The translations under genes and the position numbers were made by a program. Below, one piece after another: positions 7,058 through 49,208 of a stretch of 64,000 nucleotides of DNA (the stretch's first letter is position 1; each line of letters starts with the position of its first letter). Source of the DNA: Akkermansia muciniphila (GTDB lineage Bacteria; Verrucomicrobiota; Verrucomicrobiia; Limisphaerales; UBA9464). Under the pieces are notes generated by a model, which saw only the letters and a program-made list of their open reading frames with translations, searched no databases and had not been told where the DNA came from. The stretch spans positions 1 to 64,000 of the forward strand of contig CAMAUY010000018.1 in NCBI GenBank assembly GCA_945861565.1, in the 5' to 3' direction.

Positions 7058-7093
7058 GATGCTTGCTCTTTCTGGGTGTCGCTCGTGGCATAA

Positions 7094-9493: not shown

Positions 9494-9540
9494 AACGCGT
9501 TTCTAAAGTGATCCGGTGAAGGCTTGGTGCGGCAGCGACT

Positions 9541-12316: not shown

Positions 12317-12317
12317 A

Positions 12318-24224: not shown

Positions 24225-27200
24225 TTACGGAGTGACCCGCAGACGGAAGTAGTACTCCAACCGGGAATCGAGTGCCGGCAGACTCACAACCGCGGTGTCT
24301 CCCCTCCCCCGGATCGCATCGCTACCCGTCACCCAATGCTCCAGATCGTTGCTGATCTCCAGCCGATACTCGTGACCCACGACTCCCAACCACTCAAAAT
24401 GCAGCGTCCGATTGGGTTGCACCAGGGGCCCGATGATCTGCAGTACGGATTGAGGCCGCACCGGATCGGTCCCTGCGAGGAATTCCCCAAAATCAGTGGC
24501 ACCGTCCCCATCGGTATCCGTCGTCGCCGGATGCATGGCATCCACTCGGCCAAAGTATTGCTGCTCCCACAGATCCGAAATCCCGTTCTGATTGGAATCC
24601 GGGAACGTATAGGTCCCACTAAACACCAACGGCCCGTTAGTCGTCAGCACGTTGGTTTGCGGCAGAGGCGTCACGTAATAGGGCACCGGCGACCAGGAAA
24701 TGCCGTAGGAACCCGTCGTGACGTTGGTTCGAAAATCGCGCCCTTCGCCCGCGATGTTGTTGGATCCGGTGATCACGAAGCGGGCCGCCGCCAGATTATT
24801 GGTTACGTGGATAATCGTTTCCGCAACGGCATTCATCTCCACCGCAATATCATCAATCAGCCAGCCAACCCTGTCGGTCGTATTGAAACTAAACATCTGA
24901 TAGTTGAATCGGAATCGGACAACCTGCCCCACGTATTTCGAGATATCGAGGCGGATCTCCTCCCAGCCAAAGCTGGATTCATCCTGATTCGAATAGATGT
25001 CAATCCACGCACCGCCGTTGTTGGTCGAGAGCGCAATTTGCGCGGCCTCGATGTGAATGTCTCCAAACCCTCCGTCATCCTCCCCCCCCGTGCCGACGTC
25101 TTGAAAGTCATAATTATGCCAAAATCTCAAGGTCGCACGGTTGCCGCCAATCAGGCTCACCGCCGGGCTAATCAGATCGGTCGTGGCAAAATCTACCGGC
25201 TCGCCCTTCAGGTTGGTCGCCCAACAATTGGTCCCGCTATGGGCTTCCACGGCATGACGATTTTGCGGTGTCCCAAACTGCCAGCCAACACTGCTGAACC
25301 CAAATTCGCCGTCCTCACCGTCGCCAATGTCTCCGCCGAACACCGACGCATCCTCGAAGACAGCCCAACCGGTTCGGCCGTCCTCGAGTGTATCTTCCCA
25401 AGGCGGGAGGACCGGTTTCAACGTACGAACCGAATAGAGCTTCCCGGCATTGTTGTCCGTCGTGGTGTTGCCGGCGGCATCGCGGCTGACCACCTGGAAG
25501 AAGTAATCGCGATCGGGCAGCAGGCCGCGCAGGACCACTTCGTGCGCTGTGGCAAGCTCCGCACTATACGCCGAACGGGTCAGAAATGAATCGTCACCGC
25601 CGGATTCCCCAAAACGAATCGTCGCATCCGTCTCCTTATCGGTATCCCAAAAAACGGTCACCTCATTGTAGGCGGGATCCGTTTCAACTCCGGAAATCGT
25701 GGGTCGAACGGTGTCGATCAATGCGGTCGAAGATGTCTCGCGCGATACGGCATCGACGTAGGAGGCGGTGATTGTTTCTCCACCGGCACCGATCAACGGG
25801 TCCGAGCTGCCTCCACTGCCAGACAGCGTCAGGCGGGTGCGGAAAACCCCCTTCTGGACGGTTTCGGCTAGGTTCACAGTTCGCGGTGGACGCCCACCCA
25901 CCGTTACGGATGCCGCGACGGAACCTGAGCCAGATCGGCGACTGTCGATTACTTCTACGACAACCGAGCTCGGCAAGGTATACGATCCCTGATCGAAGGC
26001 GATTCCCGAACTGTCCCGCAGATTGGGAACGAGGAAATTGAGCGCATTGCCGAGTACGGTGGCTCGGTTGTTGGGGGCCGGGTTGTCGGCCGGCACCGAT
26101 TCCAAGGCAAACGAGTAGAATACGACGCGTCCCCTGCTGTCCTGTCCGGTGCGCGGAAAACGTACCCCGATGGGTCGGCCGTCCTCTTGTTGGAAGATCG
26201 CAGCTCCATCGGAGGCGACCCGAAGATGGTCGGAACCATCGGGCCAGACGATTCCCAGTAGATCGATGATAAACCCGCTCGGAAAGGCGTCGTAATTTAG
26301 ATCCAAATCGATGCCACCGCCCACCGGATCTCCGGCGAGCCCCTTTAGCTGATTGGCCCCCCGGTCTTCATCAAATCCAACCAGATGCAGGATATCCGCA
26401 GGGAAATTTGTCGAGTTGAGTTCCCGCAGGCGAGTGAGAAGATCAAATGAACTGACGAACAAAGCACCGCCCTGTCGGACGTAGGCACCGAGCGCGGTGA
26501 CCAATCCTGGCGCTGGTTTCACAAGTTCCTCCGGCCGCCAGAGCACGAGACGGTACGGACTCAAATCGTTACCCGCGGGAACCGGCTTCTGGCTGGTATC
26601 CCAGACTTCATATTCCAGCCCTATGGAATCGAGTGTACCGGTCCAGGTTTCAATCCCCGGATACGGAGTCTCACTGAGGAGGCCATCCGGTCCGAACGTG
26701 GATTCCGGCGAATACACCAACAACGCCGCGGCAACCTTTGGCCCAACGAAGCGATAATAGCGTCCGTCGATCGTATTCGTCGTCCCGTTGCCCGCCTTAT
26801 CGGTTGAGACGACGAAGTAATAGTAATTCGTCCCGGCATCGAGCTCCGGCAGACGCAGACGATGTTGGGCTCGAAACCCCAGATTACTGACGACATTGGT
26901 CAAAGCGTTGGTGACACCGAAATAGACAAACGAATCAGCCGGTTCATCCGTAATCCACTGCACGGTGACGTGGCCAAACTCGGCGACCGTAGTAACCCCC
27001 GCGACGACCGGTGGCGTCAAATCTATGAGCGCAAAGGCGACCCGTTCTCCGGCCGGGTTGGCGTCCACATAAGTCACGGTCAACTCATCCTTGTCTTGGA
27101 CCTGCAATACCGTGTCGCCGGGGTCCACCGGCCCGGAAGCCAAGTCAACCCTGCCGGTAAACGAACCGCCGGCACTGCTCCGGAAGAGCGTCACGGGAAA

Positions 27201-29474
27201 TCCGGCGGATTCGGCTGTGCTTCGCACGGTGACGACAACCGTGGGTTGGGCGGCGAGCTGAGAATCCACCAGACGAATCGTGGCGGTGGCTGGCGCGCGA
27301 TAGGCATCACGTCCCCACGAAACAACACCCTCACCTGGCAGGGGCAGGCGTCCGGAAATTACCAGCGCGAAATCCTGCTCGGGGGCTCCATTCGTGCGAT
27401 GATGGACGTCCTGCACCACGTTATGGGCCCGGATGCGCACAATCCATTCACCCGCTTGAGGGGTGCTTATATGGACGGCTTCGACGTTATTGATCCGATC
27501 CCCTTCCGGAGTGCCCGCCACCCCTTCCCCGTCGGCAAACGCGTTTCCTCGGTAGAGCTGACCATCCGGTCCCACCACTTCAAGATCGAGGTCATTGACG
27601 AGGGCGGGGATTGCTGCCGGCAGTCCGGGAACATCCGTATAGACAAGCGTGATCTTGAGCGCCTCCTCCGGGCCCGCGATGAATCGCTTTTCGGAAATCC
27701 TCCCGGTTGCAAGCCCGATCCCCTGGTCGGTTAGGTCAAACCGCACGCCCGCCGGATCAATCAAGTTTTCAAGATTGATTCGTCCCCAGCCTTCGTCGGG
27801 GTTCGGCACCGGCGCGGTGTCCCCCACCACAATACCCCCATCCCCACCTCCATCCTCTTCACCGTCCGGAATGACCGCCGTCCCCATGTCGTCCGCGGAG
27901 TTAATCAGCGCCGCCTTCACGAGCGCCGGCGACGGATTGGCTCCGGCGTGGGATTGTCGGTACCACTGTACGATTACCGCCGCCGCCCCGCTGGCATGCG
28001 GGCCGGCCTGGGACGTTCCGCCCTGGTAGAGGTAGTTCGCATTGATGGGTGACCAGGCGTTTTCCTCGCCGGCGAGTTGCGATTTCACCGAGGCAATCCA
28101 GGTTCCGGGGGCCGTGATGTCCGGTTTGATCCGGCCATCTTCGCAGGGGCCCCGGCTGGAGAAATCCGCCATGACTTCCTGGCCACTATCATAGATGCCA
28201 AAGCCGAACCGGTTGTTCTCCGCGGCGCCCGTTGCGATCACGTTTTTCGCCACCGCCGGGCTGCCGATGGTTTGACCGCCCGGCCCGGCATTTCCGGCAC
28301 TAAACTCCAACACATATTGCTGCTCACCAGGGGTCAGGCCATCCGCATCCCGGACAAGGGCGTCAAATTCCGCCGCGCTGATATCGTACTGTCCCTGGGT
28401 ATCGTCACCCCAAGAATTCGAGCCCACGTAGGCACCGCTACGCACGGCATCCCGGGTCAGCGTCTCGTAGGTCGGCGGCGCAAAGTAACCGCCTGCACCG
28501 TCAAAAAGTCGCTGGGCAACCAAGTGGGCTCCCGGTGCAACGCCCAGTCCCCAAAGATTTCCATCGTCATCGGTTTCACCGGTGGCTCCATTTCCCGCAA
28601 CGATTCCGGCGCAATGCGTGCCGTGGCTGTGTTCATCGCCGGCATCCGGAAGCCCCCCGTAGGCAAAGAACGCATCCACGCGCCCAGCCAAATCCGGATG
28701 CAATCCGTCCGGCTCCCCCACGTCGATCCCGGAATCCGCGATCGAAACCGTGACGCCGCTCCCATCAAATCCCAATTCATGCACATGCGGGCGCGGCGGG
28801 GCTCCGGAGCCCTCGCCCATGACAATCAGGGTGGAAACTTCATCAACCAGTTTCATTCGCGGTGCCACCTCCACCCAGAGCACCAGGGGCGAACGGACCA
28901 GGGCGAGTAGCCGTGCGGGAAGAATTCGGCCCGTTATGACGGCCCCGAATGTGGCGTTCAAATGGTGGCGTGTCCCCGCCTCAAACGCCCGCGACAACAC
29001 AGAAAGGCCCGCAACTCCCGCCCGCGGATTGGCGAGAATCTTAACCTCAATGAAATTCCCGAGAGAGTTGGTCGCCAACTGACGCATCAATCGTGACTGG
29101 AGCTTGTGTCTCGGCTCGTACGACCCGACCCATCGGACAAACGGTAGCGACCGGAGTTCACCCAGGCGGTTGGAGACCACTTCCACCACGAAGGCATCGT
29201 CCGGAACGAACCGGAGCAGATCAACTCCGCGATCGCGCAGCGCATCGCGCCATTCCGGCTGCATCCGATCGGTAAATTGAAGGATGAACAGCCCGGAAAC
29301 CGCCGTCTCCGGCACCGCCGCCTGTAATCGAGCTCGCGCTGGATTCACCGGCGGTGTGGCGATCGTCTCGTTCCGAAGCCGTATGAATCGAGCGTCATCG
29401 GATCGCGCCGCAAACGACGCCATCAGAATGACGAACACGGTACCGACCAGCCCGCGGGCGGGTGAGAATTTCAC
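24225..29474 (-). CDS. Large secreted subtilisin-like serine protease
   Basis: A 1749-aa exported protease. A signal peptide occupies about residues 1-24 and a pro-region runs to about 215. The S8 domain has D247 in SIADSGID, H284 in HSHGTHCAG, oxyanion N395 in SAGNAGPG and S488 in GGTSQAGPHASG. A jelly-roll P-like domain (about 600-705, LVYTDVPGLP...DLDLEV) follows. Two fibronectin-III-like modules (TVQWITDEPADS and TVFWDTDKETDA) are separated by a beta-rich, GATase-like insert. A lectin-like region comes next, then a Ca-binding stretch (NQNGISDLWEQQYFG; DTDGDGATDFGEF). The layout suggests degradation of large extracellular or cell-surface proteins. It stands alone between the tRNA and a small lipoprotein gene. 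Confidence 0.9.
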   Translation of the reverse strand: MKFSPARGLVGTVFVILMASFAARSDDARFIRLRNETIATPPVNPARARLQAAVPETAVSGLFILQFTDRMQPEWRDALRDRGVDLLRFVPDDAFVVEVVSNRLGELRSLPFVRWVGSYEPRHKLQSRLMRQLATNSLGNFIEVKILANPRAGVAGLSVLSRAFEAGTRHHLNATFGAVITGRILPARLLALVRSPLVLWVEVAPRMKLVDEVSTLIVMGEGSGAPPRPHVHELGFDGSGVTVSIADSGIDVGEPDGLHPDLAGRVDAFFAYGGLPDAGDEHSHGTHCAGIVAGNGATGETDDDGNLWGLGVAPGAHLVAQRLFDGAGGYFAPPTYETLTRDAVRSGAYVGSNSWGDDTQGQYDISAAEFDALVRDADGLTPGEQQYVLEFSAGNAGPGGQTIGSPAVAKNVIATGAAENNRFGFGIYDSGQEVMADFSSRGPCEDGRIKPDITAPGTWIASVKSQLAGEENAWSPINANYLYQGGTSQAGPHASGAAAVIVQWYRQSHAGANPSPALVKAALINSADDMGTAVIPDGEEDGGGDGGIVVGDTAPVPNPDEGWGRINLENLIDPAGVRFDLTDQGIGLATGRISEKRFIAGPEEALKITLVYTDVPGLPAAIPALVNDLDLEVVGPDGQLYRGNAFADGEGVAGTPEGDRINNVEAVHISTPQAGEWIVRIRAHNVVQDVHHRTNGAPEQDFALVISGRLPLPGEGVVSWGRDAYRAPATATIRLVDSQLAAQPTVVVTVRSTAESAGFPVTLFRSSAGGSFTGRVDLASGPVDPGDTVLQVQDKDELTVTYVDANPAGERVAFALIDLTPPVVAGVTTVAEFGHVTVQWITDEPADSFVYFGVTNALTNVVSNLGFRAQHRLRLPELDAGTNYYYFVVSTDKAGNGTTNTIDGRYYRFVGPKVAAALLVYSPESTFGPDGLLSETPYPGIETWTGTLDSIGLEYEVWDTSQKPVPAGNDLSPYRLVLWRPEELVKPAPGLVTALGAYVRQGGALFVSSFDLLTRLRELNSTNFPADILHLVGFDEDRGANQLKGLAGDPVGGGIDLDLNYDAFPSGFIIDLLGIVWPDGSDHLRVASDGAAIFQQEDGRPIGVRFPRTGQDSRGRVVFYSFALESVPADNPAPNNRATVLGNALNFLVPNLRDSSGIAFDQGSYTLPSSVVVEVIDSRRSGSGSVAASVTVGGRPPRTVNLAETVQKGVFRTRLTLSGSGGSSDPLIGAGGETITASYVDAVSRETSSTALIDTVRPTISGVETDPAYNEVTVFWDTDKETDATIRFGESGGDDSFLTRSAYSAELATAHEVVLRGLLPDRDYFFQVVSRDAAGNTTTDNNAGKLYSVRTLKPVLPPWEDTLEDGRTGWAVFEDASVFGGDIGDGEDGEFGFSSVGWQFGTPQNRHAVEAHSGTNCWATNLKGEPVDFATTDLISPAVSLIGGNRATLRFWHNYDFQDVGTGGEDDGGFGDIHIEAAQIALSTNNGGAWIDIYSNQDESSFGWEEIRLDISKYVGQVVRFRFNYQMFSFNTTDRVGWLIDDIAVEMNAVAETIIHVTNNLAAARFVITGSNNIAGEGRDFRTNVTTGSYGISWSPVPYYVTPLPQTNVLTTNGPLVFSGTYTFPDSNQNGISDLWEQQYFGRVDAMHPATTDTDGDGATDFGEFLAGTDPVRPQSVLQIIGPLVQPNRTLHFEWLGVVGHEYRLEISNDLEHWVTGSDAIRGRGDTAVVSLPALDSRLEYYFRLRVTP

Positions 29475-37391: not shown

Positions 37392-38921
37392 TTATTTTGC
37401 AGGCGGCTTGGAAGCCGGGTCGGGAGTTCCACCCTTGGCGCGACCGCCGTTCGGTGCTGCCACCGGCGCATTGGTTGCCGCCGGTGGGGGTGGAGGTAGT
37501 CCAAGAGCGGTCCTTAGAAGCAACTGCAATTCGGGGTGAAGCTCGCTCTGTGGATCCAGCATGCGGTTAAGCACTTCCCCCTTGATGTCCGACAATTCCG
37601 GCATCGGGAGCCGCTCCCGGGCTCCCTTGTACTGCGTGCGATCGAGAAAATTCTGACGGACAATGGCGGCGAGGCGGTTATACCCCTCGGCCTCTTCGTC
37701 CAAGCCCTGCGCCAGGTTCGCAAAATAATTGCCGACCAACCCCTCCAGCATCGCCTTGACGCGATCCGGGGATGTTTCGTTGACGTCTTCGCTGATCTTG
37801 GCCACCGCCCATTCCTGCGCGGAGTTCGCATCCGGAAACGCGTTGGTGCCGTATTTTTCGGTCCCGTAGGCAAACCATTTCTTGGCCTCATTCTCACGAT
37901 TATGAATGAAAAGGAAATAGACCGCATCCCGCATCATATTCTTGTGAGCGCTGCCGATGTGGTCTCGCTGCTCGGGGTCGTCCGTCATGGCCTTTTCATA
38001 AGCTTTCGAGGCATTTTCGATGATGGCCAGATTTGGCCCCAACTGCGGCACTCTGCGCAGTTGACCCTCGATCACCACCTGGTTGGTGATGAAGCGGCCG
38101 CGTTGGAACGAGGTGAGGAGAGGTTGATAGATCGCCCGCCGCAGGGTGATCAACTGAGCTTCGGGCTTATCGGACAGTTTGCAGACCTTCAACCCGACAC
38201 TGGCCCAGTAAATCGCGTGCGTCTCGGGCAGCCGCCACTCCAGCGGCCCGTACTGGTCGTCCACTTCCTTCATTGCGCGGGGATCCATCTTATAACGATT
38301 GGTCAGAACCGAAACTCGCGCCTGCATTTCCGGTGTCTGTGGGTTAATGAATGCGTCGAAATCTGGACGACCGCCTCCCAAAACGCTGTGCATTTCGGCG
38401 GCCCACTCCGCCTTGTAGGTCATGTGAGCGTCATCGAGATAGGCGCCGAGCTTATGCTGAAAAATCCAGGCAAGCTCCCGATACATGAGCACTTCGTGAG
38501 GATTATACCGAAGGCCATCATCACGGATCAGTTCAATGCCTTTGCGGACCCGGAACCATCGGTCCATGTGGTTGGGAAACTTGACCGATATGTTATAGGC
38601 GAGATTCCAAGCTTGATTGACCCAGACTTGAGTGAAATGCGGCTGAAGCTTGGTAATCCAGTTCGCGAGTTGAGCCATTTCGAAATACTTCCCGTTCTCC
38701 TGCAATTCCGCGGCGCGAATCCACAGAATATTGGCGATGAGACCGCGGAATCCTCCGAGCGCAATCGTGGTGAACGCGAGTACCGGCGGCGCATTCTCCA
38801 GTACCGCGGTTCGGGTCAGTTCCATCTTCTCCCGGTCGCGGTTCAAGCGCCCCTGCATCCGGCCGGCAACCGCGAGACAGGCGATCAGGGAGACTGCCAG
38901 GATGGATTTTCGCAAAGACAT
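37392..38921 (-). CDS. Helical membrane-anchored protein of unknown function
   Basis: About 509 residues from ATG 38921. A single N-terminal hydrophobic segment (ILAVSLIACLAVAGRM) anchors a large, mostly helical extracytoplasmic part. Helix pairs such as NGKYFEMAQLANWITKLQPH and VWVNQAWNLAYNISVKFP, with spaced aromatic residues, look like degenerate TPR units, but no repeat is regular enough to be sure. The C-terminus is Pro/Ala-rich (ALGLPPPPPAATNAPVAAP). It is the last gene of the eight-gene operon and starts 27 bp after the second ABC permease, so it probably serves the same machine. Confidence 0.6.
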   Translation of the reverse strand: MSLRKSILAVSLIACLAVAGRMQGRLNRDREKMELTRTAVLENAPPVLAFTTIALGGFRGLIANILWIRAAELQENGKYFEMAQLANWITKLQPHFTQVWVNQAWNLAYNISVKFPNHMDRWFRVRKGIELIRDDGLRYNPHEVLMYRELAWIFQHKLGAYLDDAHMTYKAEWAAEMHSVLGGGRPDFDAFINPQTPEMQARVSVLTNRYKMDPRAMKEVDDQYGPLEWRLPETHAIYWASVGLKVCKLSDKPEAQLITLRRAIYQPLLTSFQRGRFITNQVVIEGQLRRVPQLGPNLAIIENASKAYEKAMTDDPEQRDHIGSAHKNMMRDAVYFLFIHNRENEAKKWFAYGTEKYGTNAFPDANSAQEWAVAKISEDVNETSPDRVKAMLEGLVGNYFANLAQGLDEEAEGYNRLAAIVRQNFLDRTQYKGARERLPMPELSDIKGEVLNRMLDPQSELHPELQLLLRTALGLPPPPPAATNAPVAAPNGGRAKGGTPDPASKPPAK

Positions 38922-38948
38922 CACCAATAAGGTAAAAGGCAAACGACG

Positions 38949-40742
38949 CTAGGTCGGCAGGGCAATTTCCCGACGGGTCAGCACCACGATGCCAAGCACC
39001 ACAAAAACCCCGCCCATGAGCACGACGATCTGGAAAAAGGCCCGGGCCAACTCACCCCACGTAATGCTTTTGCCCGAACTGAGCGCATCCACGGGTGAAA
39101 AATTCTGAGCCACACCGATCAAATCGCGAGCTCCCTTGAAGAACTCGACCGCGATCGAGTTTATGACGTTTCTCTCCTTCACCATCCCGGTGTCATGGTC
39201 CACTTCCAGAATGCCACCTTGCTCGATCACCGCACGGATCGTGCCGCCGGAGAAAGCGACGATGAGCATCGCCAGGGAAACAAAGGACGAAACGGCGAAC
39301 GACATCCGACTGGAACAGGCCAGACCGATCGCGGCGAGCAAGGCCAGCCAGAAGAATAGGATCAGCAGCCCGCGAAGAAAATTGAGGGTGAATCCTCCCT
39401 CGCGATAAAGAACAGACAAACCGTCTTCGAGCGGAAAAAGGAGGGCAATCTGGTTCCAGTTCTGGCAATCAATCGTCAGCTTGTTGTCATCGCCGACCAT
39501 GTTTGGCGGGATGGCGAATTCGATCGGAGCCTCGGCCGCAAGGTCATTTTCTACCGTCAGGCGCTCCCGAGAATCCCGGGCGCCCACAATCCACTTCAGT
39601 TGATAGGTCTTTTCCGATCCGTCGAATGTTGCTGCGAAAAATTTCACCCGGAGATGCATCGGCTGATCCTTAAGCCGCGCCTTGGCCCCCGAACCGAGAT
39701 CAATGACCCACTGCCGATAGTGACCCGACTGGACAATCTGGTTGGCCGCCTTGACCTGTTCCTCGACCTGCTTGCGGACAAACTGCCGATCCATGGCGGC
39801 GACCGTCCCCTGCTTGAGGCGCTCGGCCAGCACCTGCTGAATCTGGGGCTCCAAGTCCGGCACCGCTTCCCGAGCCGACGCTCGAGCGACGAGTACTTCG
39901 CTCCGAAGAATGGCCTGCTGTTCCGGGGTGAGCTGCGCAGCACGCCCCAACAACAACCCATAAATCGTGGCCCCTGAAATTGCGAGCAGCCCGAAATCCA
40001 ACACCAGGATTCCCACCCATTTTCCAATCCAGATTTCCCAGCGCGCAATGGGCTTCGTCATAACCACGTGCATCTGGCAGTCTTCGATGTCGCGGGCCAA
40101 CGTGCCGCACGCGAGCCAAAGCGTCGTGATCCCGAGCAACCCGATGACGGCTCCCAGCGTATACGTCAGCACAATCTGAGTGAAACCCTGAGCGGTTCCG
40201 TCGTGCTCAATAATCCCCGGGAGCACAAACACCGCGGCGAGGAGCAGTGCGATCAGAATCAGGACAAGCTTATATCGGAACGCGGCCTTGAGGGTCAACC
40301 AGGCAACGGCACCAATTCGGCGCAGGGATTTGGGCGTAAAGTCCGGCAGGGTCAGGAATCGACGTCCACGCCACTCCAGCAGGGGTTCGCCCCCGACTTG
40401 TGCTAGTTTTGCGATCGCTGTCGCCCCGTTGCGGGCCGGAATCGTGCATCGAAACGAATAGCCCCCCCCCTCCGCCGCGTAGGCGCGAAGGTGACGGGCC
40501 TGAAAACCGAGCAACACCCCCGTAATAATCCAGGCAATGGCGTACGAGAACCCGGCGGCTTGGAAAGCGTGCAGAACGCCAAACGTTACCCCAAGAACGA
40601 TCAGGCCGATGGCCGCCGAAACCCAAAGCTTGTTCAACGCCGCCCAAACCGGGCCACCGATAACCGCCGGCCAGGAAAATCCCGCGGGAACGGATAGACT
40701 CTGCCCCTCGGGATTCTGGTAGATTTCGTAGTGGCGATTCAT
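38949..40742 (-). CDS. ABC-2 type permease with DUF2628-like N-terminus
   Basis: 597 residues from ATG 40742 (MNRHYEIYQNPEG); an upstream in-frame ATG at 40913 lies inside the ATPase gene and adds only arginine-rich sequence. Residues 1-75 (YEIY.NPEG...FSWPAVIGGPVWAALNK) resemble DUF2628, a small membrane domain. From about 130 an ABC-2 permease follows, with membrane helices, a large loop of about 200 residues outside the membrane (240-440), and more helices at the end. It starts 25 bp after the ATPase gene, which should power it. The fusion of the two membrane modules is unusual. Confidence 0.75.
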   Translation of the reverse strand: MNRHYEIYQNPEGQSLSVPAGFSWPAVIGGPVWAALNKLWVSAAIGLIVLGVTFGVLHAFQAAGFSYAIAWIITGVLLGFQARHLRAYAAEGGGYSFRCTIPARNGATAIAKLAQVGGEPLLEWRGRRFLTLPDFTPKSLRRIGAVAWLTLKAAFRYKLVLILIALLLAAVFVLPGIIEHDGTAQGFTQIVLTYTLGAVIGLLGITTLWLACGTLARDIEDCQMHVVMTKPIARWEIWIGKWVGILVLDFGLLAISGATIYGLLLGRAAQLTPEQQAILRSEVLVARASAREAVPDLEPQIQQVLAERLKQGTVAAMDRQFVRKQVEEQVKAANQIVQSGHYRQWVIDLGSGAKARLKDQPMHLRVKFFAATFDGSEKTYQLKWIVGARDSRERLTVENDLAAEAPIEFAIPPNMVGDDNKLTIDCQNWNQIALLFPLEDGLSVLYREGGFTLNFLRGLLILFFWLALLAAIGLACSSRMSFAVSSFVSLAMLIVAFSGGTIRAVIEQGGILEVDHDTGMVKERNVINSIAVEFFKGARDLIGVAQNFSPVDALSSGKSITWGELARAFFQIVVLMGGVFVVLGIVVLTRREIALPT

Positions 40743-40767: not shown

Positions 40768-42006
40768 CTACTTCTTCCCGCCCAGGAGACCGGAGAGTTT
40801 TTCGTTGGCCGTTTTGAGGTCCGCTCCCTTCGCTGCCGTTCCCGGCGCTGGGACGCTCGGGCTACCGCCCGCCGGAGGAGGCGTTGTGGAAGGAGGCGTC
40901 GCGGCCGCTTCACTTCGGGCTAAGGCGGACAATCGGGCGAGATCGACCTGGGGTTCGCTGGAGGGGGGCGCCATCACCTGCACATCCTCCACGGAGGTGG
41001 AGCGAGTAAGCCGATCGAGAACCTTATCCGATTGGGTTTGGCCACCCGCGCCCGCGCCCCGGATGAACTGCGCTACCCGATTGCCACTGGTGGCACCGCT
41101 GGTCTGACCGCCCGCGCGAGCCCGTTCGACAACGCCCAGGAAATAGGTCTCCAAGTTTTGAGTCGGAGTCCCTAATCGCACACGGTCGCCTCCCTCCGCC
41201 CGCAGAATTCCGAGCACGCGCTCCGTAACCTCCCGGCTGAGGACAGGCGTGGTGATCTGTACCGAATCGGGAGCTGCGAGAAGATCCTGGAGAGTCCCCA
41301 TGGCCTGAATCCGACCGCCGTAATAGATCACGACGCGATCACAGACGTCCTCGACATCCGCAAGCAAATGCGAGCTGAGGATTACCGTCTTTCCCCGACG
41401 TGCCAGCGCTAGAATCAAATCCTTCACTTCCCGACATCCCAGGGGATCAAGGCCGGCAGTCGGCTCATCGAGGATAATCAGGTCCGGATCATTAATCAGG
41501 GCCTGCGCCAAGCCAATGCGCCGCTGCATCCCTTTCGAAAATTCGCCCACGGTCCGCGTCCGGGCCTGGTTCAATCCAACCATCTCGATCAACTGCTCGG
41601 CGCGCAGGCGGCGATCCGCCGAGTTCAGTTGGAATAGGTTGCCGAAAAAATCCAGCGTTTCGCCCGGGTTGAGATACTTATAAAGATAACTCTCCTCCGG
41701 TAGATAGCCGATCCGCTCCTTGGTCCGGACGTCCCGAGGCGAATGGCCGAAGACTTCAATGTGCCCGCGGGTGGGGTAAAGAAGGCCCAGCAGCATCTTA
41801 ATGGTCGTCGATTTGCCCGAGCCATTCGGTCCCAGCAGGCCAAAAATCTCCCCTCGCCGGATGTCGAAAGTCACGTCGCTGACCGCACGCGCCTTGGGAC
41901 GACCCCAGAAATCTTTGAACACCTTGGTAAGTCCGGCGACGCGTACAACATTCTCGGCGGAGACCGTGTCGGATCTGCCGGACGCAGGATTGGGGAGGGA
42001 GGCCAT
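40768..42006 (-). CDS. ABC transporter ATP-binding protein with long tail
   Basis: 412 residues from ATG 42006. The nucleotide-binding domain is standard: LLGPNGSGKSTT (Walker A), EFSKGMQRRIGLAQAL (signature), LIILDEPTAGLD (Walker B) and the H-loop in ILSSHLL. Residues after about 290 form a C-terminal extension of about 120 residues rich in Gly, Ala, Pro and Ser, which is not part of the fold and may bind partners. It is probably the shared motor for the permeases at 38.9 and 48.2 kb; no second ATPase lies in the operon. Confidence 0.9.
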   Translation of the reverse strand: MASLPNPASGRSDTVSAENVVRVAGLTKVFKDFWGRPKARAVSDVTFDIRRGEIFGLLGPNGSGKSTTIKMLLGLLYPTRGHIEVFGHSPRDVRTKERIGYLPEESYLYKYLNPGETLDFFGNLFQLNSADRRLRAEQLIEMVGLNQARTRTVGEFSKGMQRRIGLAQALINDPDLIILDEPTAGLDPLGCREVKDLILALARRGKTVILSSHLLADVEDVCDRVVIYYGGRIQAMGTLQDLLAAPDSVQITTPVLSREVTERVLGILRAEGGDRVRLGTPTQNLETYFLGVVERARAGGQTSGATSGNRVAQFIRGAGAGGQTQSDKVLDRLTRSTSVEDVQVMAPPSSEPQVDLARLSALARSEAAATPPSTTPPPAGGSPSVPAPGTAAKGADLKTANEKLSGLLGGKK

Positions 42007-42117: not shown

Positions 42118-44127
42118 TCATGCTGTCGCCGGTGCCAACCGGACCGGCCCCGTAGCCCCGGGATCCGTCGGTTGCGCTTCAATCTGGAACGGTTCCAACT
42201 CCTCCCCCTGCCGCACGAGGCGGGCGCTGTTGAAAACGACGAACAACGCACCGGCATTGTGCAACAGGGCGGCCACGATCGGGTGGATATAGCCCATCGA
42301 ACCCGCGGTGATCACGATGATTACAAAAACGATCCCAAAGAGAAAATTCTGGTTGATCACCTGGCGTGTCAGGCGGGAAAGCTTGATCAGGAAAGGCAAC
42401 CGTCGGAGGTCGTTGTTCATGAGGGCGATCGTCGCACTGTGAATCGCCACTTCGCTGCCCGCAGCGCCCATCGCGATGCTGATGTCGCCCGCCGCGAGGG
42501 CCGGTGCGTCGTTGACACCGTCTCCAATCACGGCGACCCGGTACCCCTTCGCCTTAGTTTGCTTCACGTATTCAACCTTGTTCTGCGGAAGACATTCGGC
42601 CACGACCTCCTCGATTCCGATTTCCTTCGCCACTCGGGCAGCGACCGGTTGACGGTCCCCGGACACCATCGCGATCCGACGCACTCCCGCATCCCGCAAT
42701 CCCTGAAGAGCCTCGGCCGCCTCCGGCCGAGTCTGATCCTGAAGGCCAACCCACCCGATACAGTCATTACCCCGGGCAATGAACAACAGGCTGAATCCTT
42801 CCGTTTCGTTCAAATCCACGGTCTTAAGAAAGTCACCCGTCACGCCATTGTCTTTGAGCCAGGCGGATCGCCCGATCACTACCCGGTGCCCGTCAACCAA
42901 GGCTTCGACTCCCCGGCCCGCCGATTCCTTGAAATCGGTGGCGGACACCAAAGGCACTCCCGCCTCCTCGGCCAGCTGCACCAGCGCTTTGGCGGTCGGA
43001 TGCTGGGAATATTGCTCCGCACTGGCGGCGGTCCGCAGCAACTCCGCCGCCAGCGTATCACCAATCGGTTGCAGGCGGCTCACCACCAATTTGCCCGTGG
43101 TCAAGGTACCGGTCTTGTCGAAAACAAACGCGTTGATGCTCGCCGCAGACTCCAGGTCACCCACGTTTTTTACCAACACCCCGAGCCGTGCAGCGGCGGC
43201 GATCGCAGCCACCATTGCGCTGGGTGTGGCGAGAATGAACGCGCAGGGGCAGGCACCAATCAGAATGGTGATAACCCGATCCAGATCCTTGGTAAACGCC
43301 CAGACCAGCGCGGCAATCACCAGCACCAACGGTGTATAATAGCCGATATACTGGTCGATGATCCGCATGAACGGCAGCCGGGTCTTTTCGGCCGCCAAGA
43401 TCAACTCCCGCACGCGACCGATGGTTGTATCCTCGCCCGCCTTGGTGACCTTGACATCGAGCGCTCCGGTCAAATTGATCGTACCGGCGAAAACCTGATC
43501 CCCAGGGTTCTTATCGACCGGGAGGGATTCACCCGTGATGTTCGCCTGATTGACCGAGCCCTGGCCGGTGACGATCACCCCGTCCGCCGCGATGTTGTCG
43601 CCGGGCCGGATCCGGATCATGTCCCCAACCCCAAGATCACGCGCGGCCACCTCTTCCTCGCGCCCCTTGGTCAGGCGCCGAGCCTTGGATGGAGTCAACT
43701 TGATCAACGATTCAATCGAAGCCCGCGCCCCCGCCGCCGTCCGGGTTTCAATGATCTCACCCAGCAGCATGAAGAAGGCGACAATTCCTGCCGTCTGAAA
43801 ATCCCCTTTCGCCGCGCAGGCGAGAACTCCCAACGCCACCAGCTCGTTGATGCTCAGCCGACCCTTGGACAAATCCGCGACCGCCACCCGCAGTATCGGG
43901 ACGGCAAGAGTGACCGCTCCCACCATGGCAAACAATCCGGCCGTAATATCGCCCTTTTCGTAGACCCATTGCATGAGATACGAGATCAAGACGAAAACCA
44001 AACCGAACAACGTATAGGATAACCTCACGTTCGTATGGGAATGGTTTCCGCCGCAGTCGGCGCAGGTTTCTCCGGCCGCGTGCTGGTGAGGTTTGTCTTC
44101 AAGACTGAGCAGCGAGGTTATTTGCAT
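42118..44127 (-). CDS. P1B-type metal-transporting ATPase
   Basis: A 669-aa ion pump of the inner membrane. Motifs in order: TGES (198-201), CPC (293-295) in the metal-path helix, DKTGT with phosphorylated D337, QHP (375-377, nucleotide-binding His-Pro), and GDGVNDAPAL. It lacks a cytoplasmic HMA domain; instead the first 35 residues carry a short His/Cys cluster (HQHAAGETCADCGGNHSH). The last helix pair reads LLHNAGALFVVFNSARL, where zinc/cadmium pumps usually have Asp, so metal choice is open. It starts 25 bp after the HflK-like gene, in one operon with SPFH and ABC genes. Confidence 0.88.
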   Translation of the reverse strand: MQITSLLSLEDKPHQHAAGETCADCGGNHSHTNVRLSYTLFGLVFVLISYLMQWVYEKGDITAGLFAMVGAVTLAVPILRVAVADLSKGRLSINELVALGVLACAAKGDFQTAGIVAFFMLLGEIIETRTAAGARASIESLIKLTPSKARRLTKGREEEVAARDLGVGDMIRIRPGDNIAADGVIVTGQGSVNQANITGESLPVDKNPGDQVFAGTINLTGALDVKVTKAGEDTTIGRVRELILAAEKTRLPFMRIIDQYIGYYTPLVLVIAALVWAFTKDLDRVITILIGACPCAFILATPSAMVAAIAAAARLGVLVKNVGDLESAASINAFVFDKTGTLTTGKLVVSRLQPIGDTLAAELLRTAASAEQYSQHPTAKALVQLAEEAGVPLVSATDFKESAGRGVEALVDGHRVVIGRSAWLKDNGVTGDFLKTVDLNETEGFSLLFIARGNDCIGWVGLQDQTRPEAAEALQGLRDAGVRRIAMVSGDRQPVAARVAKEIGIEEVVAECLPQNKVEYVKQTKAKGYRVAVIGDGVNDAPALAAGDISIAMGAAGSEVAIHSATIALMNNDLRRLPFLIKLSRLTRQVINQNFLFGIVFVIIVITAGSMGYIHPIVAALLHNAGALFVVFNSARLVRQGEELEPFQIEAQPTDPGATGPVRLAPATA

Positions 44128-44152: not shown

Positions 44153-45259
44153 TCAGTTGGCGGGAGACGGTTGGGTACCAGGCTTCACGGGCACCACCGC
44201 TTCGCGGCTGATCAGCAGCCGCAATTCGTCCCCACCCACGAAAAACTTGTCCTGCGCATTGGTCAGGACCCGCGCGAAGGTCTCGGTGAGCACCCGGGTC
44301 CGGTAGAGGTCCGGATCCTTGAGATAGTACGGCAATTGCTTCCGGAAGGAATCCGCGTCACCGGATACCGCCGCCACGAGTTGGTTGGAAGCGATGATAC
44401 CTCGGTTGAGGATCTCGCGAGACTCGGCCTCCGCTTTGCGCAGAATCTCCAAGGCATCGCCCTCCGCCTGCTTGATGCGGGTGGTTCGCTCGAGTTCCGC
44501 CTTCGTCACCTGCACAAACGCCTCCCGCACCGATAGCGGCGCGATTGTGGGCACTTCCAAAAGATCAATTTTGACGCCCAGTTGCGTCCGGGCGACCCAG
44601 TCCTGAAGCCGCTGGGCAACCTCAAGTCGAAAACCCTCGGTGTTCTTGTACAATACATCGTCCGCCTTGAAACCGGCGGCCGTCCGATAGATCGCGTTGT
44701 TGAACGCGTTGAGCAGTAGATTGGAAACGCTGGTGAAGTTGAAGACAAACGCCACCGGGTCACTAATCCGGTACTTCACGGTGCCCCGGACATGCACAAT
44801 GTTACCGTCCGCCGTCAAGACGTGGCCTTCCGCCGCCGGGTTCAATCGCCCCGTTCCATTGGAGGCCTCCCCTTCCAGCTTCCCGGATAGGAGCTCATCC
44901 GGCGTTAGTTGAAACCATGGCGTAAACGTCGTCACCGTCAGCGTCTCACCGTTGCGGATGCGCACCACCTCGTCGATCGGTTGAGGCAGGGCAAAATGCA
45001 AACCCTGCTTCCGGATCATGTCCACGCCGGTGCCTACCGGCTTTCCGAAGCGGAGGACGATTGCGACTTCATTCGGATTGACCGTGAAAATGCAGGAGAT
45101 GAAAAAGGCGGCGACCAGAGCAATCACCAGCGCACGGATAACAACCAAGCTACTGCCCAGAGCCTCATTGAGGGCCTGACTGCTGGCATCATCGTTACCG
45201 AGGGCATTGCCCCGGGCGGGACGCAGATCGCCGGACTTCGGGGGTTTATCAGCACTCAT
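44153..45259 (-). CDS. SPFH/band-7 protein, HflK-like (third of three)
   Basis: A 368-aa protein. A cytoplasmic tail of about 35 residues precedes one membrane helix (VVIRALVIALVAAFFISCIF). The SPFH domain follows (NPNEVAIVLRFGKPVG; TADGNIVHVRGTVKYRISDP), then a long helix (AELERTTRIKQAEGDALEIL; AEAESREIL) and a C-terminal YYLKDPDLYRTRVL block as in HflK. HflK/HflC form large membrane cages that restrain FtsH protease; no ftsH is here. It starts 33 bp after the HflC-like gene and precedes the P-type ATPase. Confidence 0.85.
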   Translation of the reverse strand: MSADKPPKSGDLRPARGNALGNDDASSQALNEALGSSLVVIRALVIALVAAFFISCIFTVNPNEVAIVLRFGKPVGTGVDMIRKQGLHFALPQPIDEVVRIRNGETLTVTTFTPWFQLTPDELLSGKLEGEASNGTGRLNPAAEGHVLTADGNIVHVRGTVKYRISDPVAFVFNFTSVSNLLLNAFNNAIYRTAAGFKADDVLYKNTEGFRLEVAQRLQDWVARTQLGVKIDLLEVPTIAPLSVREAFVQVTKAELERTTRIKQAEGDALEILRKAEAESREILNRGIIASNQLVAAVSGDADSFRKQLPYYLKDPDLYRTRVLTETFARVLTNAQDKFFVGGDELRLLISREAVVPVKPGTQPSPAN

Positions 45260-45292: not shown

Positions 45293-46195
45293 TTACTTGC
45301 CAACGGGCTTCAGCTTCGTCGCTTCCTTGAGGAGATCTAAGGGCGGCGTGCGGTCGTCGAGAATCAGGGTCGTCCGACTTTGGAGCGATTCCTGGAGTCG
45401 TTGCGACTTCAACTGCAACTCGGCAAGGCGTGGGTTCTTTTCGAATTCTTTATAGGCCTCTGACACCTGAGCCTCGGCATCGCCCCGAATGGTGGCCTGC
45501 TTCACCCGCGCCTCCGAGAGTCGTGACTCGCGTTGCACGTCCGCGTCAGAACGGATCTTGCGCGCTTCCGCTTCGCCCTGTGCGACGTGATTTTTAGCCA
45601 GCGTTTCACGCTCGGCTTTCATCCGTTTGAAAACGTCAGCCGTCACATTCTCCGGCAATCCCAACTGCTTGATTCCGAGCAGTTCGACGGCGATGCCAAA
45701 GGTGTCCACCGTGTCCTTGGAGACCAGAGCAAGCATCTCCTTCTCGATCTGCTCGAACCTCACCTCCTCGGGCTTGGAAGAAATCAGATCGCCGAGATTG
45801 TGCTGACTCAGCACGGCGGCTTTGGCATTGCGGACCACATTTTCGAGGGCGGCCTCCGCCTTGAAGGAATCGCCACTGAACCGATCCAGAAATGTGCGCG
45901 GGTTCACCACACGCCATCCAGTGAAGACGGTGCAGAGAATGGTCTTGCCGTCTCGGGTCAGGCTTTGATCAAACTTGCGCTCGAAGTTCTGCAGGCGCTT
46001 GTCAAACTTATAGACGTTTTGAATCGGCACCGGCCAGCGGGCCTTCAGTCCCGGGGAATCGGTCGAATAGGAGATCCGGCCGAAGGTGGTGACCACCGCA
46101 ACTTCGTTCATTCGCACCTGATAGGCGAACAGGAGGAAAAGGAAGACCAGCAACAGGAGGCCACCGGTGATGAGGGTTAGACGATTCTTGCTCAT
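45293..46195 (-). CDS. SPFH/band-7 protein, HflC-like (second of three)
   Basis: A 300-aa protein with one N-terminal membrane helix (LITGGLLLLVFLFLLFAYQV). An SPFH domain follows (MNEVAVVTTFGRI; ILCTVFTGWRVVNPRTFLDR; EALL-type turn near HNLGDLISS), then a charged helix (ARKIRSDADVQRESRLSEAR) and an HflC-like end (QSRTTLILDDRTPPLDLLKE). By analogy it pairs with the HflK-like neighbour to build a membrane microdomain ring. It is the fourth gene from the end of the SPFH block in order of reading: gap 60 bp before it and 33 bp after. Confidence 0.85.
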   Translation of the reverse strand: MSKNRLTLITGGLLLLVFLFLLFAYQVRMNEVAVVTTFGRISYSTDSPGLKARWPVPIQNVYKFDKRLQNFERKFDQSLTRDGKTILCTVFTGWRVVNPRTFLDRFSGDSFKAEAALENVVRNAKAAVLSQHNLGDLISSKPEEVRFEQIEKEMLALVSKDTVDTFGIAVELLGIKQLGLPENVTADVFKRMKAERETLAKNHVAQGEAEARKIRSDADVQRESRLSEARVKQATIRGDAEAQVSEAYKEFEKNPRLAELQLKSQRLQESLQSRTTLILDDRTPPLDLLKEATKLKPVGK

Positions 46196-46255: not shown

Positions 46256-48157
46256 TTACTTCTCGGACTTCTTGTTGGGATTCTCGATGTAGATCTGGTT
46301 CGCCAGATCTTCGCGTATTCCGCCTTCGAGATTGAGTTGCAGCATCTGCTTGCTGGCATCGCTAAGAACCACGTACTTCCTGGCCGGGGCGATGGCCCGG
46401 GTGATCGCATCCAACACCAGACGTTCGCCGTAGATACTCGGTGCCGCGCTGAACGCCACCAACTGGCCACGGAACTGCGCCGCGGCACCCTGAGCCTCCG
46501 CAATCTTTAACGCCGCGGCCACCTTGGCGTCATTGACGATCTTCACCGCTTCGGCGTCTGCCCGCGGCAGGACTTCGGCACGGTATCCATAGGCTTCGTG
46601 AATTTTTGCCTCCTTTTGGGCTTCGGCTCCAATCTCCTGCTCGAAGGCGGCGGCCACCTGGATCTCTTTGTTCCCGATGGGCGGATGAACATCCTGCAAC
46701 CCGACAAACGTTATCTCAACGCCAAGCCTATGCTCGTCGGCCGCCTTTTGAATGCGCGTCCGCACTTCACCCACTGCCTTCAGGCGACCCGCCGACATGA
46801 AGTCAATCATATCGACGCTGACGAGGTACCGGACCACTTCACGCGTGGCGATTCGCTGCAGGAGATCGCCGGGATTGGAATGAGTATACATCCAGGACTT
46901 CAAGTCCTTGACAAAATATTGCACCGGGATGCTCACCGTTAGCAGGTTCACCGGAACCGCCTTCGTTACGTCGGTGTCCGTGCCCGAGGTGGTATCGCGA
47001 CTGGCAACGAGCATATTATATTCCGCCTGGCTATGCTGGACCGTCCAAACGACCGTCCTTCCTGAAGACTTGGATTCGTCCTGTTCAATACCGATGGTGA
47101 AGCTCTGGAGGGAGCGCACGGGGTAGCGATGGACGGCGTCCATGGGCCAGGGCCACTTGAAATGAAATCCCGGCTCCAAAATGCCGCGATTCGCGACCGG
47201 GCTGCCAAACCGTTCCAAAAGAGCCTGTTCCTGAGGTTCGACAAAGACAAACATGGAGCCAAACCAAAGTAGTCCGATGGCAAGGAGAGCAAGGCGTCCC
47301 AGTTCCTGTTCGAGATACTTGTAAAACCATGTCTCCGAGACCCGGAATCCGAACTGGTAATCCAACGTCTGCGCAGCCGTGCTGAACAAACCCCCAGTGG
47401 AACCGAGCAAGCCAATCAATCGGCTCTCATACACCAACCGCGTCTCACCCCCCTGAACACGGGGTCGGTAGACTTCAAACACAAGGGCGAAAAGGGTCTC
47501 CAACGCCACAATCACGAGGACGGCTAGCAGCAGCCAGGAAAGGTATCGATCCAGTTTTCCGTACTTGAAAAAATCGGAGTCTGCCGCTTCCGCAACGGCC
47601 GCGATCGCACACAGCACGGAACCGAGTAACAGTGCGGATGCTCCCGGCCGCAACAGTCGGTGATTCTCATAGCGGGCCAGCCGCGCCGAATAGGTGCCCA
47701 GTAGGAATAAGACCAATCCGATTCCGGCAAAGGCCGCCATGGAGTAGCTCGAGAAGGCCTCCACTACCACCTTCGTCGTCATTCCCTGGTAATTCCACCC
47801 AATGGCCGCCGCCTCAAAGGCAAACAACAGCAGGGTGAACGCCGGCACCATCCATTTTTCAAACATCTTCCGCGACCGCTTCGCATGCAGGGTATCCTCC
47901 GAGGATGCGGCGAAGAGTGCGGAACCGCTGCGCTGAGTCGATAAATCCTCGAATTCCAGTCGCTCCGCTTCTTCCCTGGCTTCAAGCCGCATCTGGAACC
48001 AGCTCACCAAGGCGACGAGCGTGCCCACGACCAGAAAGGCAACACTGATCTCTGCCGTGGTGGAGCCAGCCAACCGGGCGAGAAACTGCATTGCCACCGC
48101 TGCCAGAGCGAGGACAACCCAGTTCAACAACCCATTCTTCGAAAGATTTCGTTCCAT
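46256..48157 (-). CDS. Polytopic SPFH/band-7 protein (first of three)
   Basis: A 633-aa protein, unusual for its front. About eight hydrophobic segments fill residues 10-310 (for example WVVLALAAVAMQFLARL; AAFAGIGLVLFLLGTYSA; LSWLLLAVLVIVALETLFAL). An HflK-type SPFH domain starts at FVEPQEQALLERFGSPVANR (about 315), with PVNLLTVSIPVQYFVKDL, a helix rich in Ala/Glu and the end VVLSDASKQMLQL. HflK-like proteins normally have one membrane helix, so this is a fused form that could couple a transporter-like membrane part to a microdomain scaffold. It starts 91 bp after the first permease gene. Confidence 0.85.
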   Translation of the reverse strand: MERNLSKNGLLNWVVLALAAVAMQFLARLAGSTTAEISVAFLVVGTLVALVSWFQMRLEAREEAERLEFEDLSTQRSGSALFAASSEDTLHAKRSRKMFEKWMVPAFTLLLFAFEAAAIGWNYQGMTTKVVVEAFSSYSMAAFAGIGLVLFLLGTYSARLARYENHRLLRPGASALLLGSVLCAIAAVAEAADSDFFKYGKLDRYLSWLLLAVLVIVALETLFALVFEVYRPRVQGGETRLVYESRLIGLLGSTGGLFSTAAQTLDYQFGFRVSETWFYKYLEQELGRLALLAIGLLWFGSMFVFVEPQEQALLERFGSPVANRGILEPGFHFKWPWPMDAVHRYPVRSLQSFTIGIEQDESKSSGRTVVWTVQHSQAEYNMLVASRDTTSGTDTDVTKAVPVNLLTVSIPVQYFVKDLKSWMYTHSNPGDLLQRIATREVVRYLVSVDMIDFMSAGRLKAVGEVRTRIQKAADEHRLGVEITFVGLQDVHPPIGNKEIQVAAAFEQEIGAEAQKEAKIHEAYGYRAEVLPRADAEAVKIVNDAKVAAALKIAEAQGAAAQFRGQLVAFSAAPSIYGERLVLDAITRAIAPARKYVVLSDASKQMLQLNLEGGIREDLANQIYIENPNKKSEK

Positions 48158-48248: not shown

Positions 48249-49208
48249 CTAACTCAATTCCCGATCCTCGAACAAGAGCAACGCCGCCGAAAGAGCTGCC
48301 CCGACATACGCCACGAGATATCCCGCGGCTCGCGCCACGTACTCCCATGGAATCATTTTCTTGTTTTCCAGCGCGTCCGCCATCCAGAACAACTGCCAGT
48401 TGGGTGTTACCGTGTAAAGCACTTGTGCCCATCCAATGCCGCGCGCAGCGGGTCGGCCAAAAAAATAGTCCGACATGATTCCCACCATAAAAAGCGCCGA
48501 ACAAACTGCCAACGTCGGGATCACCTCCAACCGGGTCGAACACGCCAGGGCAACTGCCGCAATGATCCACAGAGCGAAAAGGATCAACACCAGCGCGGGA
48601 ATTAGCCGCCAGTCCACCCCCGCCTTGTCACCAAATGCCTTCTCCAATTGGGTGAAATACTCAATGTAAAGAAACGCCATCGTCGTCAAGACCACCAAGC
48701 CCGCCACCGCGTTGGGCGCAAACGGCCGACTGAGGAAAAAATTGAGAAAACCACCCAACAAATAGGCAAGAGCCACCGCGCCAAAATACAATCCCAACGA
48801 CGGCAGGTCCGCATTGCCGTAGGCGTCAAACGCCATCCGACTCGACAGCAACGCCGCGACCGCATTGGTAAACGTCAGCAATGTCAGCGTTCCCGCGAGT
48901 CCCGCATACTTCGCCAATAAAAAAGTCGTCCGACTCACCGGTTTGGACAGGACGGTCAAAGCGGTCCCCAGCCGGATCTCCTCCGCCACACTTGAGGCCG
49001 CACACAAAACGGCACCTAACAAGCCCGCGAGGAGCGTCACAGCCAACGCCATGTCCTTCACAAGCTTCGGATCATCGCCAAATCCGAAGTAGGGAACCGC
49101 TGAGAGAAAAACAATGAATCCCGCTGAGCAGGTCTGCAGCAATAGGTATACCGGCTGCCGGACCAGCTCCAGGAAAGCGTTGATCGCGATTGTGACAAAC
49201 TGACGCAT
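48249..49208 (-). CDS. ABC-2 type permease (first gene of the operon)
   Basis: About 319 residues from ATG 49208 (MRQFVTIAINAFLELVRQPV), where the family pattern begins; the frame is open to 49334, but that part is hydrophilic and less likely. Six or more membrane helices are seen (LAVTLLAGLLGAVLCAASSV; GTLTLLTFTNAVAALL; TLAVCSALFMVGIMSDYFFG). The KPVSRTTFLLAKYAGL stretch is the coupling region of ABC-2 permeases. No ATPase is adjacent; the one at 40.8-42.0 kb in the same operon is the likely partner. It is divergent from the MFS gene, with about 130 bp for promoters. Confidence 0.82.
   Translation of the reverse strand: MRQFVTIAINAFLELVRQPVYLLLQTCSAGFIVFLSAVPYFGFGDDPKLVKDMALAVTLLAGLLGAVLCAASSVAEEIRLGTALTVLSKPVSRTTFLLAKYAGLAGTLTLLTFTNAVAALLSSRMAFDAYGNADLPSLGLYFGAVALAYLLGGFLNFFLSRPFAPNAVAGLVVLTTMAFLYIEYFTQLEKAFGDKAGVDWRLIPALVLILFALWIIAAVALACSTRLEVIPTLAVCSALFMVGIMSDYFFGRPAARGIGWAQVLYTVTPNWQLFWMADALENKKMIPWEYVARAAGYLVAYVGAALSAALLLFEDRELS

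Follow-up and report, generated by a model that had tools for sequence, protein, structure and literature searches.

In Escherichia coli, HflK and HflC surround their known partner, FtsH, and the assembly that they form reaches into the periplasm (PMC12048511). Human stomatin has been described as enclosing aquaporin-1 and urea transporter-B (UT-B) (PMC12407830), and in the account of flotillin-associated rhodopsin an SPFH gene stands in tandem with a gene of a membrane pump family (PMC10308929). The subject of the present analysis is a gene in a window of 64,000 nucleotides (GenBank assembly GCA_945861565.1, contig CAMAUY010000018.1, positions 1 to 64,000; the window is this whole stretch), which encodes SPFHpoly, an HflK-like SPFH protein of 633 amino acids with a polytopic N-terminus (46256..48157, minus strand). 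To our knowledge, the roles of SPFH cages beyond FtsH are an open question. We found that the N-terminal part of SPFHpoly is a conserved domain with the sequence character and modeled fold of a cation diffusion facilitator (CDF) transporter, and that its gene is linked to those of two further SPFH proteins and of a P1B-type metal ATPase. The explanation we favor, at a probability of roughly 0.55, is a three-subunit SPFH assembly, with two HflK-like subunits and one HflC-like subunit, around the ATPase, in which the dead CDF domain would serve as an anchor or dock.

The SPFHpoly open reading frame (ORF) comprises 633 codons plus a stop codon. Its sole Pfam domain, Band_7, covers residues 306 to 524 (46586..47242, minus strand, as for every feature of the gene cluster described here); the score of 55.9 bits exceeds the curated cut-off of 23.6 and thus places the protein in the SPFH/Band 7 superfamily. 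With the hflK model TIGR01933 the protein scored 122.6 bits, below the equivalog cut-off of 159.4. E. coli HflK aligns with residues 403 to 610 (whole-sequence E 6.6e-22), and in Foldseek the full-length AlphaFold2 model matched HflK in the FtsH-HflK/C assembly (E 2.5e-9). A hydropathy scan detected seven membrane segments, at residues 9-27, 36-54, 102-120, 135-153, 173-191, 209-227, and 289-307. The last of these (47237..47293) is the usual HflK anchor, preceded by six helices, and the AlphaFold2 models agree, with six long N-terminal helices and a seventh. The first-pass annotation had described some 310 residues of membrane segments ahead of the SPFH domain where ordinary HflK has a single membrane helix; topology prediction returned seven segments rather than one, and the length is about right, made up of the six helices, a conserved linker of about 60 residues, and the anchor. 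Charges flanking the helices fit an N-in orientation for the first four; at the others they are weak or neutral. From these charges, the SPFH domain is predicted to lie in the periplasm, as in HflK, and the juxtamembrane linker (residues 229 to 288; 47294..47473) in the cytosol.

The six-helix domain itself (residues 1 to 228; 47474..48157) resembles the YiiP/ZnT fold. Residues 1 to 300 were modeled by AlphaFold2 from 10 sequences with a mean predicted local distance difference test score (pLDDT) of 65.6 and a predicted template modeling score (pTM) of 0.61, the membrane helices lying mostly at 70 to 86. All of the first 12 PDB matches that Foldseek returned for this model were CDF transporters. 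In VIA-align, YiiP reached a Z score of 17.9 over 185 residues at 2.8 A; 18 CDF entries stood at Z of at least 13, and the first unrelated chain followed at 8.9. When a profile of 80 family domains was compared by hhalign with 13 CDFs from relatives, the match had a probability of 80.9%; after E. coli FieF and ZitB had been included among the CDFs and the linker trimmed off, the probability was 93.0% (E 3.5e-7, 185 columns), in an alignment collinear over the six helices. Split into two parts, the family gave 76% for the 35 near rows and 90% for the 45 far rows. Controls with the same query reached at most 2.4% for rhomboid, EamA, ZIP, the P-type ATPase, and the two ABC-2-type permeases of the cluster (PERM1 and PERM2), and 0.2% for a reversed CDF; homology of the N-terminus with the membrane part of the ATPase itself was rejected on this result. 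A hidden Markov model (HMM) of the domain, with no CDF in the query, found true CDFs directly in four genomes (G200, 2.5e-9; G210, 4.2e-9; G262, 5.3e-9; G478, 2.9e-7; G, C, and L numbers are our handles for genomes, contigs, and loci). These matches span roughly helices 3 to 6, and the four proteins score 163 to 203 bits with the CDF profile and have the usual C-terminal part. For residues 1 to 286 of the window protein, the Pfam families listed were DUF420 (E 0.24) and SPC25 (E 0.41), with no PF01545 match at E up to 1. Across 27 family members there was no convincing Pfam match either (best 0.0032, in one member, among the best 25 of 33 weak families), and no match of the domain to PDB sequences was convincing (best 0.076).

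The CDF metal ligands lie in helices 2 and 5, at positions that we take to be D45, D49, H153, and D157 of FieF; D45 and D49 were confirmed on the fetched FieF sequence. Over 80 members of the SPFHpoly family, the corresponding columns hold mostly F/L/Y, G/A, Y/F/A/W, and G/A (F, G, A, and G in the window), and in 62 members all four columns are free of D, E, H, and C. None of the 80 has, in helix 2 or in helix 5, two D, E, or H residues at a spacing of four, and all 15 reference CDFs carry D, E, or H at all four columns. Judged from these columns, the CDF metal site is gone from the family. Because the ligand pairs are lost in all 80 members, the N-terminal domain reads as a pseudo-transporter, that is, as the membrane domain of a CDF zinc transporter without its metal site. 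The helix 6 acid E220 is kept as Glu in 77 members and as Asp in 3. Conservation continues into the linker (YRPR...SR...YQFGFxVSETWFY), where R231 and P232 are each found in 75 of the 80 members, S245 in 77, G270 in 78, and W277 in 74. The linker runs directly into helix 7, and the cytosolic C-terminal domain of CDF transporters is absent.

To follow this architecture across genomes, we used both the whole protein and an N-terminal profile (A1) built from 27 sequences. The whole-protein search (E 0.001) found relatives in 54 of the 141 genomes of the class, many of them other SPFH proteins. Of the 387 phylum genomes searched with the N-terminal profile, 157 gave matches, as did 61 of the 294 from Planctomycetota, the phylum of G463 (locus L019); a few of the matches counted are to other proteins. 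No match of the domain was found in plasmids. At the same hydropathy threshold, 43 relatives of 595 to 727 amino acids had seven segments in 26 cases, six in 13, five in 3, and four in 1. Three polytopic SPFH ORFs are longer than usual, at 826 to 883 amino acids (L125, L159, and L160). Twelve genomes with weak or short-frame matches were re-inspected: six have SPFHpoly, the match in four (G200, G210, G262, and G478) is a true CDF transporter, and no SPFHpoly-type gene was seen in two (G450 and G556). Frames shorter than 550 codons numbered 3 among the phylum matches listed and 7 of 67 among the Planctomycetota matches. Of the short-frame matches that were opened, some are incomplete genes, either cut by a contig end (L169-L172), broken (L168), or split (L137, L138, and L173/L139); the remainder are true CDFs (L258-L260, L262, and L265) or contain no such gene (L263 and L264). 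No lone N-terminal domain was present among the opened matches from the two phyla, a check that left out G155, G163, G181, G211, G228, and G258 (best E 2.9e-35 to 1.3e-29). These results bear out the suggestion that the domain is a built-in membrane part. Chance joining of ORFs was dismissed, since the domain and its join are conserved in two phyla.

Several of the incomplete genes deserve separate mention. At L137 (8118-10168, G634) and L138 (8009-9924, G570), the first three or so helices are encoded in a short overlapping ORF and the next ORF holds the other three helices and the SPFH domain; these may be genuinely split genes or frame breaks. The two halves of the CDF-like domain of G574 lie on different contigs (L173/L139). 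At L168 (5492-7495), the polytopic SPFH gene has an in-frame stop and is followed by HflC-like, HflK-like, P-type ATPase, and ABC ATPase genes.

In the window, SPFHpoly is the second of eight same-strand genes with intergenic distances of about 6 to 110 bases, measured with ABC ATPase and PERM2 starts accurate to a few bases, in the order PERM1, SPFHpoly, HflC-like SPFH, second HflK-like SPFH, P1B-type ATPase, ABC ATPase, PERM2, and a protein of unknown type. The HflC-like subunit (45293..46195, 300 amino acids) and the second HflK-like subunit (44153..45259, 368 amino acids) each have one membrane helix and were assigned by Pfam and NCBIfam matches and by their grouping with E. coli HflC and HflK, respectively, in a tree. 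The 669-residue ATPase (42118..44127) scored 552.5 bits with TIGR01525, above the cut-off; its best phmmer match among solved structures was 7qbz, a cadmium P-type ATPase. It carries TGES, DKTGT, GDGxND, and an intramembrane CPC, and its N-terminal tail contains His and Cys residues.

Gene neighborhoods were annotated at 83 loci (11 from the nearest relatives, 32 from the class search, 20 from the Planctomycetota search, and 20 from the phylum search), which were picked by score and spread rather than at random; they come from two phyla, some genomes contribute two, and L009 and L010 are near copies of the window. On the same strand as SPFHpoly, the HflC-like gene was found at 81 loci, the second HflK-like gene at 78, the P-type ATPase at 75, the ABC ATPase at 58, and PERM2 at 51; PERM1, counted on either strand, was near at 61. 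Most absences of core genes fall at contig ends. Among the eight loci lacking the ATPase, five end too soon (L011, which retains a fragment, L013, L123, L149, and L160), and L139 begins at a contig end, its genome having an ATPase beside the N-terminal fragment on L173. At seven loci the ABC ATPase is absent although 9 kb or more of downstream sequence is available. Six of these seven (L084-L089) lack both permeases as well, keeping SPFHpoly, HflC-like, HflK-like, and ATPase genes only, and the same four-gene order recurs at L174-L176, weak Planctomycetota matches outside the 83. Because they are the more constant neighbors, the two sibling SPFH genes and the P1B ATPase are likelier partners of SPFHpoly than is the ABC permease, with which the first-pass annotation had suggested that the membrane part works. 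That suggestion is weakly supported; a constant association with an ABC-2 exporter was not found, and the choice of an ABC partner was probably wrong.

A second arrangement of the same parts emerged from the class search, in which 7 of the 141 genomes had SPFH matches within frames of more than 1000 codons. All seven were inspected, and each proved to be a single ORF of 1004 to 1073 amino acids in which a P1B ATPase is followed by an HflK-like SPFH domain; in the three fusions scanned for helices, an anchor helix lies between the two. An HflC-like gene lies downstream of all seven fusions and an HflK-like gene downstream of six, L094 being the exception. The fusions point likewise to the P1B ATPase as the partner. 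Defining the trio as one HflC-like protein, one plain HflK-like protein, and one HflK-like protein with a polytopic front, we can say, as far as gene sequences tell, that a similar trio exists in two forms: with a CDF-like front and a separate ATPase, or with the ATPase itself as the front. Two genomes, G025 and G052, carry both the fusion (L093 and L166) and the SPFHpoly module (L083 and L084).

A tree of 72 SPFH domains, taken from 19 module loci and the window, three fusion loci, E. coli HflK and HflC, and the C31 pair of the window's own genome, was computed by a quick method with Shimodaira-Hasegawa-like approximate likelihood ratio test (SH-aLRT) support only. The polytopic, HflC-like, and HflK-like groups each fell on one side of a branch (support of 98, 99, and 95). 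The HflC-like group lay with E. coli HflC, and the polytopic proteins, the HflK-like proteins, and the fusions lay with E. coli HflK. Between its SPFH sub-domains, SPFHpoly has an insert (residues 350 to 404; 46946..47110) with W371 and H375. An insert with W and H four apart ("LWTxxH," "EWNxxH") was found in 16 of 20 polytopic rows and in all three fusions, as against 1 of 20 plain HflK-like module rows, 0 of 20 HflC-like rows, and 0 of 9 others. The W-x3-H insert may mark the pump-facing subunit.

Under the explanation that we favor, the three SPFH proteins would form a periplasmic dome resembling that of HflK/C around the P1B ATPase. Within this dome, the pump would be held in place or gated by the linker and the pseudo-CDF domain. 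The domain would fix or regulate the pump in the membrane, and the linker would be the likely site of contact with the ATPase on the cytosolic side; exported metal would then enter an enclosed space or a restricted patch of membrane. A bolder version, which we hold only tentatively and judge somewhat improbable, sees walled metal pumps in Planctomycetota-Verrucomicrobiota-Chlamydiota (PVC)-type bacteria, with a dome of three SPFH paralogues, a closed periplasmic chamber, and a decayed CDF as the dock. On this version, the ATPase-SPFH fusions would be a second form of the same machine, with the ATPase in the place of the dock.

Several results weigh against a pump-enclosing assembly with a CDF-derived dock. 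Confidence in the N-terminal model is moderate (pLDDT 65.6, from 10 sequences), and Foldseek matched it to CDFs with weak E-values (best 0.044). A best Z of 14 is typical of mostly helical models that lack clear relatives. A CDF compared with its own reversal scored 40% in hhalign, so that high scores can arise by chance for CDFs. In the family, 18 of the 80 members have a D, E, H, or C residue at a single ligand column out of the four. The full-length model, also built from 10 sequences, reached only pLDDT 52.9 and pTM 0.33 and was set aside as unusable for the SPFH arrangement. Two loci, L127 and L142, are real exceptions to the linkage, in that the ATPase is absent despite room for it: L142 has none in 19.5 kb, and L127 leads into a 2304-codon ORF that reads as peptide synthetase-like. 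The tree does not settle the branching order within the HflK side, the place of the fusions included. The architecture, the CDF-like sequence and modeled fold, the loss of the ligand pairs, the gene linkage, and the fusions are observed; that a dome forms and touches the ATPase is our inference, as are the topology and the function, and no protein contact is shown. Finally, the ATPase ligands vary, so that no common metal is given. In an alignment of 79 ATPase rows, including the window and three fusions, 78 have DKTGT (the remaining row is cut) and 60 have CPC; the others have IPC, MPC, or LPC, CPS, CPV or CPI, TPC, VPA, or SPV. The idea of one common metal for all modules was dropped on these grounds. 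Since the ligands vary, the transported substrate probably differs between modules, which suggests that the enclosure is shared and the ion is different or, in some modules, not a soft metal. Altered intramembrane cysteines were seen in the module ATPases of L083-L089, L082, L147, L148, L150, L154, and L155; the IPC, MPC, or LPC enzymes mostly have HE in helix 8, and others have VPA, CPV, CPI, or SPV.

How else might the locus be explained? The trio could be an additional HflK/C set that steers FtsH toward or away from its clients, the P1B ATPase among them, with the CDF-like domain recognizing the client. FtsH is, after all, the partner described for HflK/C (PMC12048511), and the genome contains one FtsH above the cut-off (819.5 bits). 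However, that gene lies on another contig, C34 (the other loci were not searched for FtsH), another HflK/HflC-like pair is available on C31, and the frequent neighbor of the trio is a pump, which is fused to SPFH in seven genomes; we therefore consider an FtsH modulator unlikely. Service to the ABC exporter, for instance by linking PERM1 or PERM2 to the SPFH assembly, would suit the window, which holds all of the ABC parts in one gene cluster, and the presence of PERM1, ABC ATPase, and PERM2 at 61, 58, and 51 of the 83 loci. Against this stand the roomy loci without an ABC ATPase, the four-gene core that L084-L089 keep without permeases, and the reversed orientation of PERM1 in several loci, mostly from the Planctomycetota search. 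We regard this role as quite doubtful.

The remaining two alternatives concern the N-terminal domain alone. It might still transport, moving another ion or protons through a rewired site such as E220 in helix 6, which is nearly invariant inside a membrane segment; yet helices 2 and 5 carry no D/E/H pair at a spacing of four in 80 of 80 members, and E220 lies near the conserved YRPR of the linker and may be structural. Continued transport seems a shade less probable again than service to the exporter. That the CDF resemblance is due to chance or convergence, the domain being an unrelated scaffold, would fit the best Z of 14 that is usual for mostly helical models lacking clear relatives, the weak Foldseek E-values, and the lack of a PF01545 match for the window domain. 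Yet Z scores up to 17.9 are followed, after the 18 CDF entries, by a gap down to about 9, and the profile match is collinear over six helices in both parts of the family. The direct matches of the domain HMM to true CDFs cut the odds of this alternative by more than half, and it appears very improbable.

The outer genes of the cluster were assigned as accessory or flanking parts. PERM1, the first gene (48249..49208), is an ABC-2-type permease by weak ABC2_membrane matches, its start being set by the length of relatives; it had no match among PDB sequences. The ABC ATPase (40768..42006) is of the ABCA/NosF type by domain matches; it is nearest to ABCA lipid transporters and then to NosF, a ranking not taken as a substrate assignment. 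PERM2, the second ABC-2-type permease (38949..40742), likewise rests on weak matches. The last gene (37392..38942) encodes a conserved protein of unknown type with one N-terminal membrane helix, which follows PERM2 in many relatives and for which Pfam gave nothing at E up to 1. The genome is a 5.9-Mb draft, 93% complete. In addition to the HflK/HflC-like pair on C31, its other Band_7 matches are a pair on C14 and an eighth on C117. PF01545 (Cation_efflux) had no match in this draft, which may reflect a gap, and is present in 11 of 15 genomes searched. Elsewhere in the window, a type I restriction-modification-like ORF set with other genes between (3953-15058) includes large helicase-like, specificity-like, and methylase-like proteins, named by reading their translations. 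Judged from its translation only, a 1749-residue ORF (24225-29474) looks like a secreted protease of the subtilisin type that carries repeat domains.

Among the papers listed from the open full-text literature (titles and abstract openings, with subscription journals and most preprints outside this scope), we recognized none on HflK-like proteins with a CDF-like domain or on P1B ATPase-SPFH fusions. The conserved linkage and the natural fusions tie a cage protein to one likely client, a metal pump, and the idea of enclosure can be tested directly with one four-gene core. If the explanation is correct, a transporter fold has been kept as a structural part after its transport site was lost. These results also suggest that a label like "FtsH protease modulator HflK," assigned automatically, would be misleading for the SPFHpoly family.

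Compared with HflK, SPFHpoly shares an alignable SPFH domain, coiled coil, and C-terminal strands, and an adjoining HflC-like gene. In contrast to HflK, it has six extra helices and the linker as well as the W371/H375 insert, it scores below the hflK cut-off, and its cluster adds a second HflK-like gene and a P1B ATPase. With the CDF/SLC30 family (YiiP/FieF, ZnT) it shares the six-helix membrane fold, the helix order, and HMM matches, but it lacks the ligand pairs and replaces the cytosolic C-terminal domain with the linker, helix 7, and SPFH. The P1B ATPase-SPFH fusions have the same kinds of SPFH partners and, like SPFHpoly, a polytopic domain of metal-exporter type ahead of an HflK-like SPFH domain; their membrane domain, however, is a whole ATPase, whereas that of SPFHpoly is CDF-like. 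Stomatin is similar in concept, in that an SPFH dome surrounds a polytopic transport protein, although the system as described there is human, stomatin is not HflK-like, and its partner is not fused (PMC12407830). The flotillin-rhodopsin pair is likewise similar in concept, with SPFH and pump-family genes in tandem, but in that account the flotillin is not HflK-like, the rhodopsin is not a metal pump, and the genes are separate (PMC10308929). The N-terminal domain can be traced to a known fold and the SPFH part to a known family; the surprise lies in the pump modules, fused and unfused.

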